Below, piece after piece: positions 13,022 through 47,852 of a stretch of DNA of 64,000 bases. The notes under the pieces were generated by a model. The model was not told the DNA's origin. It saw only the letters and a list, made by a program, of their open reading frames with translations, and searched no databases. The translations under genes were made by a program, and so were the position numbers. This DNA comes from Chloroflexota bacterium (GTDB taxonomy: Bacteria; Chloroflexota; Limnocylindria; Limnocylindrales; CSP1-4): the NCBI GenBank assembly GCA_016191345.1, contig JACPOU010000012.1:1-64000 (forward strand), read 5' to 3'. Numbering within the stretch: the stretch's first letter is position 1; each line of letters opens with the position of its first letter.

Positions 13022-15064
13022 TCAGCCCGCGGGAGCCGCCGGGGAGCCGCTGGAGCTCGGCGTCGCGCGGCGCGCCTCGAGCGCCTCGCGGACCTGGGCG
13101 GCGAGCCCGTCGGCATCGAGGCGGAGCATCCGCCGGAGGTCCGCCACGGAGCCGTGGTCCACGAACCGGTCGCCGGGGATCCCGAGGATCCGGACCGACA
13201 CCTCGCGATAGGCGGGATCGGTGGTCCGCGCCTCCTCGATGGCCTCGAGGACCGCGCTCCCGAAGCCGCCGGTCACCACGGATTCCTCGAACGTCACCAC
13301 GAGCTGCTTGCCCCGCGCGGCATCGAGGATGAGCTGGCGGTCGAGCGGCTTCGCGAACCGCGCGTTGATCTGCCCGACGGACCAGCCATCGCCCTCGAGG
13401 ATCGCCGCCGCCGCCGCCATCCGCTGGACGATCGGCCCGAAGCCCACGAAGAGGACGTCGCGACCCTCGGCGAGGACCTCGCCCCGCCCGACGGGGATCT
13501 CGACCGGCGCCGTCTCGGGCAGGCCGAGCCCCGGGTCGCGGGGATAGTGGAGCGCGAACGGGTGGTCCTGGGCCATCGCCGTCCGGACGAGGCTCCGGAG
13601 CTCCTGCTCGTCCTTGGGTGAGGCGATCACGAGGTACGGCAGCTGGCGCTGCGCGGGCAGCGTGAACATGCCCTGGTGCGACGTCCCGTCCTCGCCGACG
13701 AGGCCCGCCCGGTCGACACCGAGCAGGACCGGCAGGTCGTTCTGGCAGACGTCGTGGACGGTCTGGTCGAAGGCCCGCTGGAGGAACGTGGAGTAGAGCG
13801 CGACCACCGGCCGCATCCCGCCGAGCGCGAGCCCTGCGGCGAGCGTGACCGCATGCTGCTCCGCGATCCCGACGTCGATGGAGCGGTCCGGGTAGGCCGC
13901 CGCGAACTTCGCCATGCCGGTGCCCGTCGGCATCCCGGCCGTGATCCCGACGATCCGCCGATCCGTCTTCCCGAGCTCCACGAGGGTGTCCGCGAAGACC
14001 GAGGTGTAGTTCGGGGGCTTGCTGGGCGCGTCGGGCTTCGCGGCCGGCGGCACGGCGTCGCCGTTGGAGCCCTTTCCATGGGGCGTGGCCGGCCCGATCG
14101 TCGCCGGCGTCCGCGACGCCCCGTCGTGGGCATCGGCGTTCGGGGCCAGCTCGATCGGCGGCAGGGCGGCCCCGTGGAAGGACACCTGGTCCGCCTCGGC
14201 CGGGCGGAAGCCGCGGCCCTTCTGGGTCCGGACGTGGACGAGGACCGGGCCCTTCAGCTCGAGGACACGCTCGAACGTCTCGAGGAGGGCGTGCAGATCA
14301 TGGCCCGGCACGACGCCGATGTAGGTGACGCCGAGGTCCTCGAAGAGCTGGCCCGGCGAGGCGAGGTTGACCACGGACCGGCGGAGCCGCTGGCTCCACT
14401 CGAGCGCGCCGCCGCCGACGACCGGGATCCTCTCGACGAGCCCGTCGTAGGCCGACTTGCTCTGCTGCCAGGCCGTGCTGAGCTTGATCTTCGAGAGGTA
14501 GGTGGAGAAGGCGCCGACGGTCGGGCTGATCGACATCTCGTTGTCGTTGAGGACGATGAGGAGCTGCGTCCCCTTGTGGCCGATGTCGTTGAGCGCCTCG
14601 AGCGAGAGGCCGCTCATGAGAGCCGCGTCGCCGACGACGACCGCGATCCGCTCCAGGCCGTGGCGCATGTCGCGCGCCGTGGCAAGGCCCTGGGCGATCG
14701 AGAGGCCCGTCCCCGCGTGCCCGCCGTCGAAGACATCGTGCTCGCTCTCCGAGCGCCGCGGGAATCCGCCGACCCCGTCGAGCTGGCGGAGGGTGTCGAA
14801 CCGATCCAGGCGGCCCGTGAGGAGCTTGTGGGCGTAGGCCTGGTGGCCGGTGTCCCAGACGATCCGGTCATGCGGCGATTCGAGGAGCCGGTGGAGGGCG
14901 ATGGTCAGCTCCACCACGCCGAGCGACGAGCCGAGATGGCCGCCGGTCGTGGCGACGGTCCGGATGATCGTCTCGCGGATCTCCGCGGCGAGGACCGCCA
15001 ACTGGCCCTCATCGAGGCCGCGCAGGTCGGCGGGTCCGGTCAGGCGTTCGAGGATCGAGGTCAC
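13022..15064 (-). CDS. dxs: 1-deoxy-D-xylulose-5-phosphate synthase
   Basis: TGGHLGSSLGVVELTIALH; VWDTGHQAYAHKLLTGR; GDAALMSGLSLEALNDIG; FDQTVHDVCQNDLPVLLGVDRAGLVGEDGTSHQGMF; GTG start 15064. Confidence 0.96.
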   Translation of the reverse strand: MTSILERLTGPADLRGLDEGQLAVLAAEIRETIIRTVATTGGHLGSSLGVVELTIALHRLLESPHDRIVWDTGHQAYAHKLLTGRLDRFDTLRQLDGVGGFPRRSESEHDVFDGGHAGTGLSIAQGLATARDMRHGLERIAVVVGDAALMSGLSLEALNDIGHKGTQLLIVLNDNEMSISPTVGAFSTYLSKIKLSTAWQQSKSAYDGLVERIPVVGGGALEWSQRLRRSVVNLASPGQLFEDLGVTYIGVVPGHDLHALLETFERVLELKGPVLVHVRTQKGRGFRPAEADQVSFHGAALPPIELAPNADAHDGASRTPATIGPATPHGKGSNGDAVPPAAKPDAPSKPPNYTSVFADTLVELGKTDRRIVGITAGMPTGTGMAKFAAAYPDRSIDVGIAEQHAVTLAAGLALGGMRPVVALYSTFLQRAFDQTVHDVCQNDLPVLLGVDRAGLVGEDGTSHQGMFTLPAQRQLPYLVIASPKDEQELRSLVRTAMAQDHPFALHYPRDPGLGLPETAPVEIPVGRGEVLAEGRDVLFVGFGPIVQRMAAAAAILEGDGWSVGQINARFAKPLDRQLILDAARGKQLVVTFEESVVTGGFGSAVLEAIEEARTTDPAYREVSVRILGIPGDRFVDHGSVADLRRMLRLDADGLAAQVREALEARRATPSSSGSPAAPAG

Positions 15065-15374
15065 GGGTGGCGGCGCTCCTGGGGCGTTTCGGACGGGTGC
15101 GAGTCTACCCCGACGTTGGACGAGCGCCCGGGTCCTGACGTGCCGGGGAGGCCTCGCCGGCGCCGACGGGAACGTGATACCACACGGGCGCAGGTTTCGC
15201 AACGGCCCGGCGGGTCGGGGCCGTGAGCGATTCCATCGGTTACGAATGAGCGTCGTCGTATTCGGCGGGAGAGACCCATTCGGGGTCAGGTACGAACGAG
15301 GGTCGTCATCGGTGCGTCGGGGCAGCCGGAGCGTCAATCAGCGACCCGAATTCCCGGTTGCAGTGAACACGGAG

Positions 15375-16869: not shown

Positions 16870-17676
16870 TCACGAGGGGCTGGCAGCCGTCCCGCGGCCG
16901 ATCGGGATCGCCACGACCTCGAGCCCACCGGAGCGCCCGGCGATCTCGACCTGTCGAGCGGCGACATCGGCCGTCCCGTCCGCCCGGCTCCAGCTGTCGC
17001 GGCTCACGAGGAGCTCGCCGGGTCCCGCCACGCTCCCGAGCCGGGCGGCGACGTTCACGGAGTCGCCCAGCGCCGTGAAGTCGATCTTGCCCTCGCTGCC
17101 GATCGCCCCGACGAATGCCTCGCCGGTGTGCACCCCTGCGCCCACGCGGAACCCCTGCTCCGACAGCCCGCTGCGGTCCACGCCCTCGAGGATGGCGGTG
17201 GCCGCCCGGATCGCCCGGGCGGCGTGGTTCTCGCCCGCGATGACCGGAATGAACAGGGCCATGACGCCATCCCCGAGGAACTTGTCGACGATCCCGCCGT
17301 TGTGATCCACCGCCGTGGCGGCGACGCGGTAATACTCCTGGAGCAGCCCCCGGTAGCGGGCCGCGCTGATGCGCTCGGCGAGGCCGGTCGATCCCCGGAC
17401 ATCGGCGAAGACGATGCTGATCTCCAGCTCCGCGCCACCCGGAAAATTCGCCAGGTGCCCGAAGCACGCCTTGCAAAGGAGTGGATTGTCCTGGACGGGG
17501 CCGTGCCACATGAGCCTGGCCGCGGCCCCGCCGACGCCGTGGAAGGGCGAGGCGCAGACCTTGCACCGTGGCGCCGACGGGACACGCTTCCAGAGGCTCC
17601 GGACCTTCAGGAGGGACGGATCTTCACCGGTCAGTAGCGCACGCCACTGCGCGCTCGCGGGATCGTCGAGCGTCAT
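16870..17676 (-). CDS. Class III adenylate/guanylate cyclase with N-terminal cysteine (CxxC) pair module
   Basis: SIVFADVRGSTGLAERI, GIVDKFLGDGVMALFIPV, KIDFTALGDSVNVAARLGSVAGPGELLVS; CKVC...CKAC upstream; start could also be 17715. Confidence 0.85.
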   Translation of the reverse strand: MTLDDPASAQWRALLTGEDPSLLKVRSLWKRVPSAPRCKVCASPFHGVGGAAARLMWHGPVQDNPLLCKACFGHLANFPGGAELEISIVFADVRGSTGLAERISAARYRGLLQEYYRVAATAVDHNGGIVDKFLGDGVMALFIPVIAGENHAARAIRAATAILEGVDRSGLSEQGFRVGAGVHTGEAFVGAIGSEGKIDFTALGDSVNVAARLGSVAGPGELLVSRDSWSRADGTADVAARQVEIAGRSGGLEVVAIPIGRGTAASPS

Positions 17677-17802
17677 GCCGGCGATGGTACGCCGAAGTAG
17701 TGCTGCCGAGGACATCGCGATCCGGACTCCAGCGCGCGGATGCTGACGGTTCGCCCGGTCAACGTCGACGTCGCTTGGCTTGCGGGAATGTCACCCGGCG
17801 GA

Positions 17803-19203
17803 TCAGACCGGGGCGGCCTCGGTCCCGCGATCAGGAGTATCTCCTGCCCTCCGGCGCGTCACGAGATCCTGATAGGGCGGGAAGGCGTCCATTAGAGCGG
17901 CGATTCGTTCGATTGAGAAGCCGCACTGCAGCAGGATGCTGGCTTGCACGGCGATCGCAAGCACCTGGTTGAGGCGAAAGAGCGCTTCGCCTTGTGCCGC
18001 CTTCGGCGCCATGTCCTCGTCGAAGTGCGTGTAGTAGTGGCGCGTGTTGGCTGTCAGGCGGGCGAGTTGAGGGTCCGGCGAGATTGGGGTGAGAACAGAC
18101 TCCAGGGGGCCGAACAGTGCCGTGAGCCTCTCCACGAGCGATGGTTCGTTCGAGTGGGCCAGCTTAGTCACGAGCCAGCCGCGTACTTCCTCCGGGACAG
18201 CCCCCGCGATCGAATCGACCAAGGTGCGGTGCTCTCGCTTTGATCGCACTCGGTTCGGGCGCGTTCGCCTGTGCAGGACTTCCAATGCTTGGGATAGGGC
18301 CAGGAATTTGGTCTCAACGAAGGAAGAGGAGTACTGAGTCGTGAAGTACAGATCGATGGTTTCGCGCAAGACCTCTGAGTTGCTGAACCAACCAATTAGG
18401 AGGTCGGGGAACTGCTCTTCGACATCCGAGAGGGCGAACAGCATCTCGTGCGGCATCGGAGAGGATCGACGTGGCGGCTCTGGCGGCTCGACGACCTGAT
18501 AGATCGCTTGGATCAGGTCTCCGGGCGCAGTTGAAGGACCGTCGGAGGTGCGGAACGAGAGCTTCGTGATCACGCATGGTCTGCCGACGGCGATTGACAG
18601 GAACTCCTGAAATGGCTGTAGCCACTCGCGGACGAGTGCCTCGAATGATGACCCTTCGGGGAACTGGAGGCGGACTGCCCGCGAGACACTCAACCCCCTC
18701 TCATGGACCCGGTTACCGGTTACCTGCCAGCCCGTGGCTAGGGCGAGAGTTATCCCTCCAATCACGACCGACGGGAGCGGCGGATCGGTGACCGCCACTT
18801 CATATCCGCGTGGTTCAAGGGCACGCTCCGCCATCCCTCTGGCCCAGATCCACTCGGCAAGGTACGTGAACTCAAGGAAGGCTTCTGAGATCACAACGCT
18901 CCGGTAGTCGACATGTCCGCCGACTAGGACGAGCGGCGCGGCAATCGTCTGTGTTGTGAATCCGGGTGCGCTGAAGTTGGACGACTTCTCCATCGCGTTG
19001 GCGATCGTGATGGACTTTCCGCGATCGGTGAAGCCGAAGATTTGGGGATAGTCGACGTCTGCGAACGTATCAGCAAGTTCCTTGAAGCTGCCGATGAGTC
19101 GCAGCTCTGCTAGCGCGGACGGCCGCGTCTCAAGCGTCCCAGTAAGCTTGCGCTCCTCATTCTCGGGGAGCCACCAGAGCCCGGAGTAAATCGCATGATC
19201 CAT
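17803..19203 (-). CDS. apeA: ApeA-like HEPN-domain protein, putative anti-phage/abortive infection
   Basis: N-term GLWWLPENEERKLTGTLETRPSALAELRLIGSF...YPQIFGFTDRGKSITI (ApeA_NTD-like); C-term HEPN-type Rx4H motif in ANTRHYYTHFDED (18025-18042). Confidence 0.75.
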   Translation of the reverse strand: MDHAIYSGLWWLPENEERKLTGTLETRPSALAELRLIGSFKELADTFADVDYPQIFGFTDRGKSITIANAMEKSSNFSAPGFTTQTIAAPLVLVGGHVDYRSVVISEAFLEFTYLAEWIWARGMAERALEPRGYEVAVTDPPLPSVVIGGITLALATGWQVTGNRVHERGLSVSRAVRLQFPEGSSFEALVREWLQPFQEFLSIAVGRPCVITKLSFRTSDGPSTAPGDLIQAIYQVVEPPEPPRRSSPMPHEMLFALSDVEEQFPDLLIGWFSNSEVLRETIDLYFTTQYSSSFVETKFLALSQALEVLHRRTRPNRVRSKREHRTLVDSIAGAVPEEVRGWLVTKLAHSNEPSLVERLTALFGPLESVLTPISPDPQLARLTANTRHYYTHFDEDMAPKAAQGEALFRLNQVLAIAVQASILLQCGFSIERIAALMDAFPPYQDLVTRRRAGDTPDRGTEAAPV

Positions 19204-19342
19204 GCGTATGTCCCCAATCGCGGTCGCAATCGCTTCCGGGACTATGCGCCCTCTTCAGTCAAAGGTGGCGTGGGCGAAGGAGGCAGTCCGAGCGAACGTC
19301 TCGCGAATCGGACCGCTGAGATTCTGTCATTCGGCGTGCACG

Positions 19343-19609
19343 TCACTCGACCTCGCGGGCGTCCTCGGGGCGGACGTCGATCGTGCTCAGGGCACCGCCG
19401 GCACGGGTGACCAGCTGCTGGACCTTGAGCTCCGCCTCGGCGAGGAGGGCGGCGCAGCGCTCGTGGAGGGCGACGCCGCGCTCGTAGAGCGCGATCGAGC
19501 GTTCGAGGGCCAGGCCACCGGTCTCCAGCTCGGCCACCGTCTTCTGCAGCTCGGCGAGCGCCTCGTCGAAGGTCAGGCGGTCGATCGGGGTCTCAGTCGT
19601 CTCCGCCAC
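19343..19609 (-). CDS. xseB: Exodeoxyribonuclease VII small subunit
   Basis: LTFDEALAELQKTVAELETGGLALERSIALYERGVALHERCAALLAEAELKVQQL. Confidence 0.93.
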   Translation of the reverse strand: MAETTETPIDRLTFDEALAELQKTVAELETGGLALERSIALYERGVALHERCAALLAEAELKVQQLVTRAGGALSTIDVRPEDAREVE

Positions 19610-19738: not shown

Positions 19739-21112
19739 TCAGCGCCGCCGACGTGCCGCGCCGGGGCCACTGGAGTCTCCGGCCGTCGCCGGGAACTCGC
19801 CGCGCGCAACTCGGATGCTGAGCGCGGCGCCCGACCGCACCTCCGCCGGATCGCGGATGACCGCGCCGTCGTCCGCCCGGCGCACGATCGCGTAGCCGCG
19901 CTCCAGCGTCGCGCCCGGCCCGAGGGCCGAGAGTGCCGCACCCGCGGCCGCCAGCTGTGCCGAGGCGAGCGCGCTCCGCCGCGCGACCAAGGCCGGTAGT
20001 CGTTCCGCCAGCCGCGCCTCTCCACTCCGTCCATCGGCGATCCGCTGCTGGGCCGCCCGCGTCGCGCGGTCGAGGAGCTCCCCGGCCCGCTCCCGCGAGG
20101 CGGCCAGACGCGCCGCCGGGTGGAGCCGCTCGAGGACTCGCCGCTCCGCGATGACCTCCCGCGACGCGGAGGTCACCACGCGCCCCGCGGCCGCATGCAT
20201 CCGGTCCGCGCCACGGGCGAGCGAGGCCGCGAAGTCGGCCCGGTTCGGGACCACGAGCTCCGCGGCCGCGGATGGGGTGGGCGCCCGGACGTCCGCGGCG
20301 AAGTCGGCCAGCGTCACGTCCACCTCGTGCCCGATCCCGGCGACGACCGGCAGCGTATGGGCCACGACCGCCCGGACAACTCGCTCGTCGTTGAACGACC
20401 AGAGGTCCTCCATCGAGCCGCCGCCCCTGGCGAGGATCGTGACCGCGGGCGCTTCCGAGGCCCGACCCTCGTGGCGCAGCTCCTCGACGTGCCGATCCAG
20501 GTGCCGGAACGCTGCCACGATGCTCAGCGCACTCCCCTCCCCCTGGACCTTGCAGGCGACGAGGACGACCCGGGCGAGGGGCCACCGCCGCCCAAGGACC
20601 TGGCAGACGTCCTTCCAGACGGCGCCGGTGGGCGAGGTGATGACCGCGATCGCGGCCGGCCGCACCGGCAGCGGCCGCTTCCGCGCGGCGTCGAAGAGGC
20701 CCTCCGCCGCGAGCTTCGCCTTCAGCTGCTCGAAGCGGATCGCGAGGTCCCCCACCCCGGCGGGCTGGAGCGACTCCACGTACAGCTGGAGGGCGCCCTG
20801 TGGCTCGTAGAGGTCCATCCGGCCGTGGACCACGACGCGCAGCCCGGTCTGCGGCTGGAACGCCGAGCGGACCCGCTCGTCGCGGAACCACACGCACTGG
20901 AGCTGGGACTTGTCGTCCTTCAGGGCAAAGTAGGCGTGTCCGGCGGTCGAGATCGTGACGCGCCCGACCTCGCCCTCGACCCACAGGTCGCGGAGCCGCT
21001 CGTCCGCCCGGACGAGGCCCGCGACGACCTTTGCCGCCTCGCTGACCGCGAGGATCCGGACGCCGAACGTACCGGGCGCGCCGGCGGGCCGCGGGTCGGG
21101 TCGAAGGTCCAT
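19739..21112 (-). CDS. xseA: Exodeoxyribonuclease VII large subunit
   Basis: OB fold LWVEGEVGRVTISTAGHAYFALKDDKSQLQCVWFR; ITSPTGAVWKDVCQVL; ILARGGGSMEDLWSFNDERVVRAV; AGIGHEVDVTLADFAADVRAPTPSAAAE. Confidence 0.95.
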   Translation of the reverse strand: MDLRPDPRPAGAPGTFGVRILAVSEAAKVVAGLVRADERLRDLWVEGEVGRVTISTAGHAYFALKDDKSQLQCVWFRDERVRSAFQPQTGLRVVVHGRMDLYEPQGALQLYVESLQPAGVGDLAIRFEQLKAKLAAEGLFDAARKRPLPVRPAAIAVITSPTGAVWKDVCQVLGRRWPLARVVLVACKVQGEGSALSIVAAFRHLDRHVEELRHEGRASEAPAVTILARGGGSMEDLWSFNDERVVRAVVAHTLPVVAGIGHEVDVTLADFAADVRAPTPSAAAELVVPNRADFAASLARGADRMHAAAGRVVTSASREVIAERRVLERLHPAARLAASRERAGELLDRATRAAQQRIADGRSGEARLAERLPALVARRSALASAQLAAAGAALSALGPGATLERGYAIVRRADDGAVIRDPAEVRSGAALSIRVARGEFPATAGDSSGPGAARRRR

Positions 21113-21159
21113 GTGCCGCCCATCGTAGGGCGCTCGGCACTGGGTGGCGGACCGGCGCC

Positions 21160-21495
21160 GTGTCGCGGCGGCTCGTCGACTGGCTGTGGCTCCTCGCCGG
21201 CATCGAGGTCGGGGCGCTCCACCTCGTGCAGACGCCCGTCGCCGCGCAGCTCTCCGTCCTCGTCGTGACGGTGTCATCGGGGCGATGCACGACGCTCGAG
21301 ACGGCCCGCGGCATCCCGACCGCGAGCCCGTCCGACGAGGTCAGTCGACGTCCGGGCGCGGCTCCGCGCCCGTGCCGACCGCCAGATCGGCGGGGGCTGC
21401 GGGTTCGCGTCCTGCGGATCCTCCTCGTCGTGGCCGGGCTCTTCGCCCTGGTCCAGGTCATCGTCAGCGTGCCGGGCGCGACGCCGGGCTCCTGA
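21160..21495 (+). CDS. Possible small membrane protein
   Basis: Two hydrophobic stretches (DWLWLLAGIEVGALHL; LRILLVVAGLFALVQVIVSV); GTG start, otherwise unsupported. Confidence 0.25.
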   Translation: MSRRLVDWLWLLAGIEVGALHLVQTPVAAQLSVLVVTVSSGRCTTLETARGIPTASPSDEVSRRPGAAPRPCRPPDRRGLRVRVLRILLVVAGLFALVQVIVSVPGATPGS

Positions 21496-46202: not shown

Positions 46203-47852
46203 TCAGCGTGATCGGCGCGGCCCTGGGACTGCCGGCACCCCGGCGTCGTCCCAGCCGAGCGCGGCCAGGGCCGCGAACGCCTCCTCGCGCTCGTTCCACG
46301 GCTCGGCGCGGTCGGCGTGGAGGATCGTCGGCTCGTGGCCCTTGCCCGCGAGCAGGACGACGTCACTGGGACGCGCGGCCTCGAGGGCCGTGCGGATCGC
46401 CAGGCGCCGATCGACGATGAGCAGGAGGTCCTCGCCTTCGCGTCGCCCGGCCGCGACCGCGCCGGCCGCGATCTCGCGGAGGATCGCCTCGCGGTCCTCG
46501 CCGCGTGGGTCCTCGTCCGTGAGGACGACGAGCCGGCAGCGCTCCCCCGCGACGCGGCCCATCATCGGTCGCTTCTCGCGGTCCCGCTCCCCCGCCGATC
46601 CGAACACGACGATGACCCCGCCGCCCGCGGCCCTGGCCGCCGCGCCGAGCTCGTCGAGGACGACGCGCAGCGATGCCGGGCTGTGGGCGTAATCGACGAC
46701 GACGCTGAACGGCTGGCCGGCCTCGAGACGCTCCATCCGCCCGGGGACGCCCGCGAGGCCCTCGAGGCCGGCCCGGACCCGCGCCGGGTCGAGGTCGAAC
46801 GCCTCGCCGAGGGCCACGATCGCGAGGGCGTTCCAGGCGTTGAACCGGCCCGCGAGCCGGAGCCGCACCTCCGCGGCCCCGGACGGCGCGTCATAGGCGA
46901 CCCGGAGGCGGCCGTCCTCCTCCGCCACGGACCGGATCCGCACGTCGGCCCCGGCCGCCTCGCCGTAGGTGAGGAGGCGCGCCCCGGCCTCGCGGGTCGC
47001 CGCGGCGAAGACCGGACCGGCCGGATCGTCCGCGTTCACGATCCCGGCCCGCGGCCACGCCAGGCCAGGCTTCGGCGGATTCGAGGAACCGCTCGCGAGC
47101 CGCTCGAACAGCGAGCGCTTCGCCGCGCGATAGGCCTCGAACGAGCCGTGGAACTCGAGATGCTCATGGCTGAGGTTCGTGAAGATCGCCGCGTCGTAGC
47201 CGATCCCGCCGACCCGCTCGAGGGCGAGCGCGTGCGACGTCGTCTCGACGACGGCCACGCGATCGCCCGCGGCGACCATCGCCCGGAGGGCGGCCTGGAG
47301 CTGGGGCGCGGCGGGCGTCGTGGCGTGCTCCACGTTGACCTCCCGGACGCCGCCGATCTGGGTCGCGACGGTCCCCAGGAGCCCCGCCGGCACGCCGGCC
47401 GCTCCCAGCGCGGCGGCGGCGAGGAACGAGGTCGAGGTCTTGCCGTCCGTGCCGGTGATCCCCACCACGCCGAGCTCGCGCGATGGGTCGCCGTACCACC
47501 AGGCCGCGGCCTCGGCGAGCGCGAGCTGGCTCCGGTCGACGACGACCTGGACGACCCGCGACGGGAGGTCCGGGAGGCGCCGCTCCACGACGATCGCGGC
47601 CGCGCCGCGCGTGGCCGCGTCGGCCGCAAAGCGGTGGCCGTCGACGTGCGCACCGGGAATCGCGACGAAGACCCCGCCGGGCCGGACGGCCCGCGAATCC
47701 TCCGTGACGCCGCCCCGGATCTTCGTCGCCAGATACCGGCCGGCCGGGTCCGACCGGAGCCGTCCGGCGACACGCAGCCGCTCCACCAGCCCGCTGAGCG
47801 GTCGGGGCGTCCGCGGCTCGGCGGCGGCGAGAAGCTCGGTGAGCGTCGTCAT
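46203..47852 (-). CDS. murE: UDP-N-acetylmuramoyl-tripeptide synthetase MurE
   Basis: GITGTDGKTSTSFLAAAALGAAG; EHATTPAAPQLQAALRAMV; VDYAHSPASLRVVLDEL; LAGKGHEPTIL. Confidence 0.95.
   Translation of the reverse strand: MTTLTELLAAAEPRTPRPLSGLVERLRVAGRLRSDPAGRYLATKIRGGVTEDSRAVRPGGVFVAIPGAHVDGHRFAADAATRGAAAIVVERRLPDLPSRVVQVVVDRSQLALAEAAAWWYGDPSRELGVVGITGTDGKTSTSFLAAAALGAAGVPAGLLGTVATQIGGVREVNVEHATTPAAPQLQAALRAMVAAGDRVAVVETTSHALALERVGGIGYDAAIFTNLSHEHLEFHGSFEAYRAAKRSLFERLASGSSNPPKPGLAWPRAGIVNADDPAGPVFAAATREAGARLLTYGEAAGADVRIRSVAEEDGRLRVAYDAPSGAAEVRLRLAGRFNAWNALAIVALGEAFDLDPARVRAGLEGLAGVPGRMERLEAGQPFSVVVDYAHSPASLRVVLDELGAAARAAGGGVIVVFGSAGERDREKRPMMGRVAGERCRLVVLTDEDPRGEDREAILREIAAGAVAAGRREGEDLLLIVDRRLAIRTALEAARPSDVVLLAGKGHEPTILHADRAEPWNEREEAFAALAALGWDDAGVPAVPGPRRSR

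Follow-up and report, generated by a model that had tools for sequence, protein, structure and literature searches.

The locus and its gene

The window is the whole analysed stretch of DNA, 64,000 nucleotides long, from a Chloroflexota bacterium. Its minus strand carries an apeA-like gene, with two exonuclease VII genes on one side and a nucleotidyl cyclase gene followed by dxs on the other. The features discussed below are these:

13022..15337, minus strand: dxs, conserved gene bounding the variable interval on the side away from xseB (DXP synthase Pfam match)
16870..17715, minus strand: class III nucleotidyl cyclase (adenylate/guanylate), neighbouring gene (PF00211)
17803..19203, minus strand: apeA-like gene, 466 aa, ATG start (ORF call, Pfam, PADLOC, AlphaFold2 model)
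17914..18303, minus strand: HEPN_Apea domain, all-alpha, presumed RNase, residues 301-430 (PF18739)
18025..18042, minus strand: Rx4H motif RHYYTH, R388-H393, predicted catalytic (translation and homologue alignment)
18268..18282, minus strand: E308-V-L-H311-R312 motif in an upstream helix of the HEPN domain (homologue alignment)
18394..19188, minus strand: ApeA_NTD1 domain, beta-rich, presumed sensor, residues 6-270 (PF18862)
19343..19609, minus strand: xseB, exonuclease VII small subunit, upstream neighbour (PF02609, E 1.8e-16)
19739..21277, minus strand: xseA, exonuclease VII large subunit (PF02601, E 6.5e-82)

In Pfam, the 466-aa protein matches PF18862 (ApeA_NTD1) with E 7.2e-39 and 134 bits over profile positions 2-269 of 271, and PF18739 (HEPN_Apea) with E 1.2e-24 and 88 bits over profile positions 1-133 of 136. 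Both matches are far above the curated cut-offs of 25.5 and 24.4 bits, respectively. The best PADLOC match is PDC-S58, a single-gene defence candidate (E 4.4e-82, residues 1-440 of 466), and the PADLOC Cas13-ApeA model matches the C-terminal domain (E 6.4e-39). NCBIfam has no model for this protein, and no solved relative was found in PDB by sequence and profile search. The original prediction had recognized an ApeA-like N-terminus and a C-terminal Rx4H HEPN motif in an open reading frame that is present, with the N-terminal peptide quoted for it, exactly at 17803-19203 on the minus strand. The full-length PF18862 match bears out the former, R388-H393 falls within the PF18739 region, and the suggested profile search for ApeA and HEPN families gave strong full-length matches in both Pfam and PADLOC. 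The ApeA/BMEI1217 HEPN family, its conserved motif, and ApeA-NTD1 were defined earlier (PMC3710099), and ApeA counts as one of the anti-phage systems from Gao et al. 2020 (PMC10952713, PMC7699616). Judged from its translation, the gene at 17803-19203 is an intact single-gene member of this known family of anti-phage RNases, an ordinary but divergent new addition to a group already described.

Conserved residues and predicted structure

Conservation was read from an alignment of 71 full-length members fetched by a DNA pattern around the catalytic motif, and from a 58-row subset. R388, T392, and H393 were fixed by the search pattern, and their 100% conservation in the 71-member set is therefore no evidence; columns outside the catalytic motif are unbiased. 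Among these, G57, E308, and R359 are invariant across the 71 members, and G8, G22, L34, T66, L67, G95, W118, W272, L285, F300, L301, H311, R312, N352, and L356 are each more than 90% conserved. In the motif of the upstream helix, E308 is found in 71/71, H311 in 93%, and R312 in 94% of the aligned homologues. The window protein has the consensus at every residue conserved above 90% except for I67 in place of L, a conservative change, and G57, W272, E308, H311, R312, N352, and R359 are all present.

R388 and H393 align with the R-N-x3-H of homologues. The residue after the motif R is N in 68 of the 71 members and H in the other three, with the window protein (RHYYTH) among them. The phylum members fetched by HMM that reach the motif also retain R and H, with the exception of L040. 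This homologue (L040:8493-9803, from phylum member G132) leaves the family at its 3' end in the Rx4H motif (RNTFRRES), and it is possibly a frameshifted or decayed copy. In the window, the conserved residues and the Rx4H motif are retained, and the apeA-like gene therefore looks intact.

The AlphaFold2 model of the full protein, computed from 58 sequences, is a confident two-domain structure (mean pLDDT 91.3, pTM 0.89), with a beta-rich part at about residues 4-235 and an all-alpha part at about residues 265-452. Modelled alone, the HEPN part is all-helical, with pLDDT of 95.2. In Foldseek against PDB, neither the whole model nor the HEPN domain gave a match with E <= 0.001. The HEPN toxins 7ae8, 8xdj, 8xeh, 7ae6, and 7ae9 are in the top 50 for the HEPN part, with E of 1.2 to 2.8. 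What supports the HEPN assignment is therefore the Pfam profile, together with Anantharaman et al. 2013 (PMC3710099), rather than structural similarity to a solved protein. In Foldseek, the beta-rich N-terminal domain weakly resembled MrkH, Hcp2, and tail tube proteins, but these matches were below significance and were set aside.

Insertion site and base composition

The adjacency of xseB and xseA is conserved in 12 relatives from the genus, and dxs then follows at a variable distance. Homology of the window to the relatives stops at the xseB stop (19325-19345) and restarts at 15202 in the 5' part of dxs. The xseB-dxs interval measures about 0 and 0.2 kb in G002 and G013, about 1.2-1.9 kb in four species, 4.6 kb in one species of the genus, and 10.7 kb in another; in G003 it runs for more than 11.5 kb after xseB without reaching dxs. 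Its contents vary among the relatives and include an AlkZ-like protein, an ABC transporter, lipoprotein-like genes, and others. The eight intervals of genus relatives that are fully assembled (0 to 11 kb) carry no apeA. At the spot where apeA lies in the window, G003 has a serine recombinase with Resolvase, Recombinase, and Zn-ribbon domains about 42 bases past the xseB stop, and then a replication-associated protein (L035:2486-4784). Within the genus, the interval seems to be a hotspot for integration.

The break in homology at the xseB stop and dxs, together with the varying content of the interval, supports the view that apeA was gained at a variable site. A contaminant contig was ruled out, as both flanks match genus relatives in the same order and with 72-86% DNA identity. 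Direct repeats flanking the insert are only short and imperfect, of chance type rather than att-like, and give no pointer to the element that carried apeA in. There is no tRNA at the insertion site; the window has a single tRNA, at 46432.

The gene had been described as interrupting a housekeeping stretch between the cyclase and xseB. This is correct on the xseB side, but the cyclase is not part of a conserved housekeeping stretch, and the true borders are xseA-xseB and dxs. The closest genus orthologues of the cyclase (74% and 67%) are on other contigs than the xseB-dxs spot, and this gene is probably unrelated to apeA. It matches PycC models weakly, up to 6.6e-20 over the catalytic domain, as is the case with class III cyclases. 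Pycsar was ruled out, since no effector model hits the gene beside the cyclase and the genus orthologues do not have the same neighbour.

On its other side, apeA follows xseB in the same orientation after 139 bp, and short oligonucleotides are a product of exonuclease VII. The ApeA activator reported in the title of a preprint cited in PMC13405049 is a deoxydinucleotide. The two genes could accordingly be read as partners, with the adjacent exonuclease VII (xseAB) making the small DNA fragments that activate ApeA. Such cooperation is extremely improbable. An xseA match was found nearby in 1 of about 95 ApeA loci, a Vibrio locus where it is 3.8 kb off, and a functional link of apeA with exonuclease VII was rejected on this count. 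Because the interval holds many unrelated genes in the genus, the insertion spot is the best explanation for apeA and xseB lying side by side.

The gene has a GC of 0.610, whereas other stretches of 1401 bp average 0.731 (sd 0.023; z about -5.3). It is the lowest-GC stretch of this length: none of the 1196 others is as low, and the next-lowest value outside the gene is 0.658, in agreement with the original prediction that it is less GC-rich than its neighbours. The low GC agrees with foreign origin, but it recurs across the family: of the 70 ApeA homologues for which flanks were compared (L040-L142), 68 are AT-richer than those flanks, by a mean of 8 percentage points and in any host. AT-richness relative to the surroundings appears to be a trait of the ApeA family, and low GC alone therefore cannot date the gain.

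Distribution and relatives

The genome of the window has one apeA copy, and the 14 other species of its genus have none (0/14). The HEPN_Apea domain is present in 4/177 genomes of the class and ApeA_NTD1 in 9/399 genomes of the phylum, with the window's own genome counted in both. Vertical conservation across the lineage was thus not seen. The horizontal gain that had been proposed is supported by this patchy presence together with the apeA-free intervals, and the anomalous GC agrees with it. The compared sequences favour acquisition into a spot that varies within the genus and adjoins DNA-repair genes.

Distant members, when first aligned, differed too much for the alignment to serve in scanning the collection. 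A single motif pattern, run against 85,462 species genomes, recovered 118 relatives from bacteria and archaea, the best of them about 30% identical. ApeA members are also present on plasmids, from Sinorhizobium, Listeria, Pseudomonas, and Halobacterium; phage records and viral contigs yielded no homologue of the apeA-like gene. Phyla are interleaved in the tree built from 82 members, with 27 changes compared with a minimum of 16. Chloroflexota sequences are the nearest rows to the window protein, on long branches and with no strong support. In G460, from the same family, there are two diverged apeA genes, L062:1297-2694 and L063:8301-9719, with 30% and 25% identity to the window protein, respectively.

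Defence context

As had been predicted, apeA is a stand-alone gene, with no convincing defence gene beside it within the window. No sigma-70-like promoter was seen upstream. Several homologues have defence genes as neighbours: HmaA (PADLOC) at L082, a type IIG restriction enzyme at L086, SIR2 and HerA on the Listeria plasmid (L050), and a TIR-type PDC-S73 protein on the Pseudomonas plasmid (L051). A PADLOC comparison at 1e-15 gave 144 matching models for 148 neighbours, drawn from 21 homologues, and 7 for 47 control proteins, figures which count models and not genes and which use a control (45 window proteins and two from L035) that is essentially one genome. This excess is only supportive of a link to defence. 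The neighbours of apeA are not conserved among relatives or homologues, and it has no obligate partner gene. An apeA homologue from Alteromonadales (L097:3590-11420) is in an array with attC-like repeats (CTAACAA ... GCGTTAG) that is integron-cassette-like.

HEPN domains are common as toxins (PMC3710099), and apeA is mobile and patchy. The gene might on these grounds be a selfish or toxin-like HEPN gene on mobile DNA, either an addiction module or an orphan toxin, with no anti-phage benefit. This explanation is very unlikely, as no antitoxin-like partner adjoins the gene or was seen to recur, and the family is filed among the PADLOC defence candidates, with the neighbours listed above.

Proposed mechanism

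We consider it likely, reasoning from sequence, that the gene is a functional, horizontally acquired ApeA, a single-protein abortive-infection RNase with deoxydinucleotides as its probable trigger. For the window protein, we infer activity, dimerisation, trigger, RNA target, and abortive outcome as follows. In the uninfected cell, the protein would be held inactive. Infection by a phage would supply the trigger; going by what is reported for other ApeA proteins, this would probably be deoxydinucleotides, short products of DNA breakdown. The beta-rich N-terminal domain would sense the DNA fragment and presumably release the HEPN dimer, in which paired R388 and H393 may cut host and/or phage RNA, perhaps tRNA. 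The cell would then be arrested before phage release.

As the closest relative found is only about 30% identical, this protein may differ from better-known members in its trigger and its target. The ApeA fold could have been kept while the fast-evolving N-terminal domain came to respond to something other than DNA-breakdown products, for example a structural protein of a phage or the product of a mobile element. None of the homologues found exceeds 36% identity, and ApeA-NTD1 is poorly conserved (PMC3710099), both of which would suit a different trigger, but the glycines and aromatics that mark the family at the N-terminus (G8, W11, P13, G22, G57, T66, G95, and W118) are all retained, and a different trigger is rather unlikely. 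We also regard it as unlikely, slightly more so, that the chloroflexotal branch to which the window protein belongs has shifted to another trigger or RNA target than studied ApeA; if this were true, the branch would be a functionally distinct ApeA subtype. A functional ApeA triggered by deoxydinucleotides remains the preferred reading.

Comparison with known systems and significance

With ApeA of Gao et al. 2020, the window protein shares the full-length two-domain architecture, the Rx4H and E-x2-H-R motifs, the single-gene organization, and the patchy distribution. It differs in its full-length identity to homologues, about 30% or less, and in having H and not the usual N after the predicted catalytic R. 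PDC-S58, the model that matches it best (residues 1-440), is a candidate category without an assigned mechanism. The HEPN RNase motif is common to this protein and Cas13, the type VI CRISPR effector, and ApeA HEPN domains are putative ancestors of Cas13 effectors (PMC7699616). The window protein has no guide-RNA module and only one HEPN domain, however, and it is not a CRISPR effector. The HEPN effector of the type IX retron (retron-Kva2) is also a HEPN RNase for abortive infection (PMC13405049), but that system is multi-component, controlled by msDNA, and without the canonical Rx4H motif, unlike the apeA-like gene.

The overall picture of the ApeA family is unchanged by the window gene. The family gains an intact and highly divergent ApeA, encoded by an uncultured lineage of Chloroflexota in which such genes are rare, and apeA is placed in a genus-level xseB-dxs variable spot with documented apeA-free alleles. 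The divergence of this protein is useful for comparing what ApeA senses.
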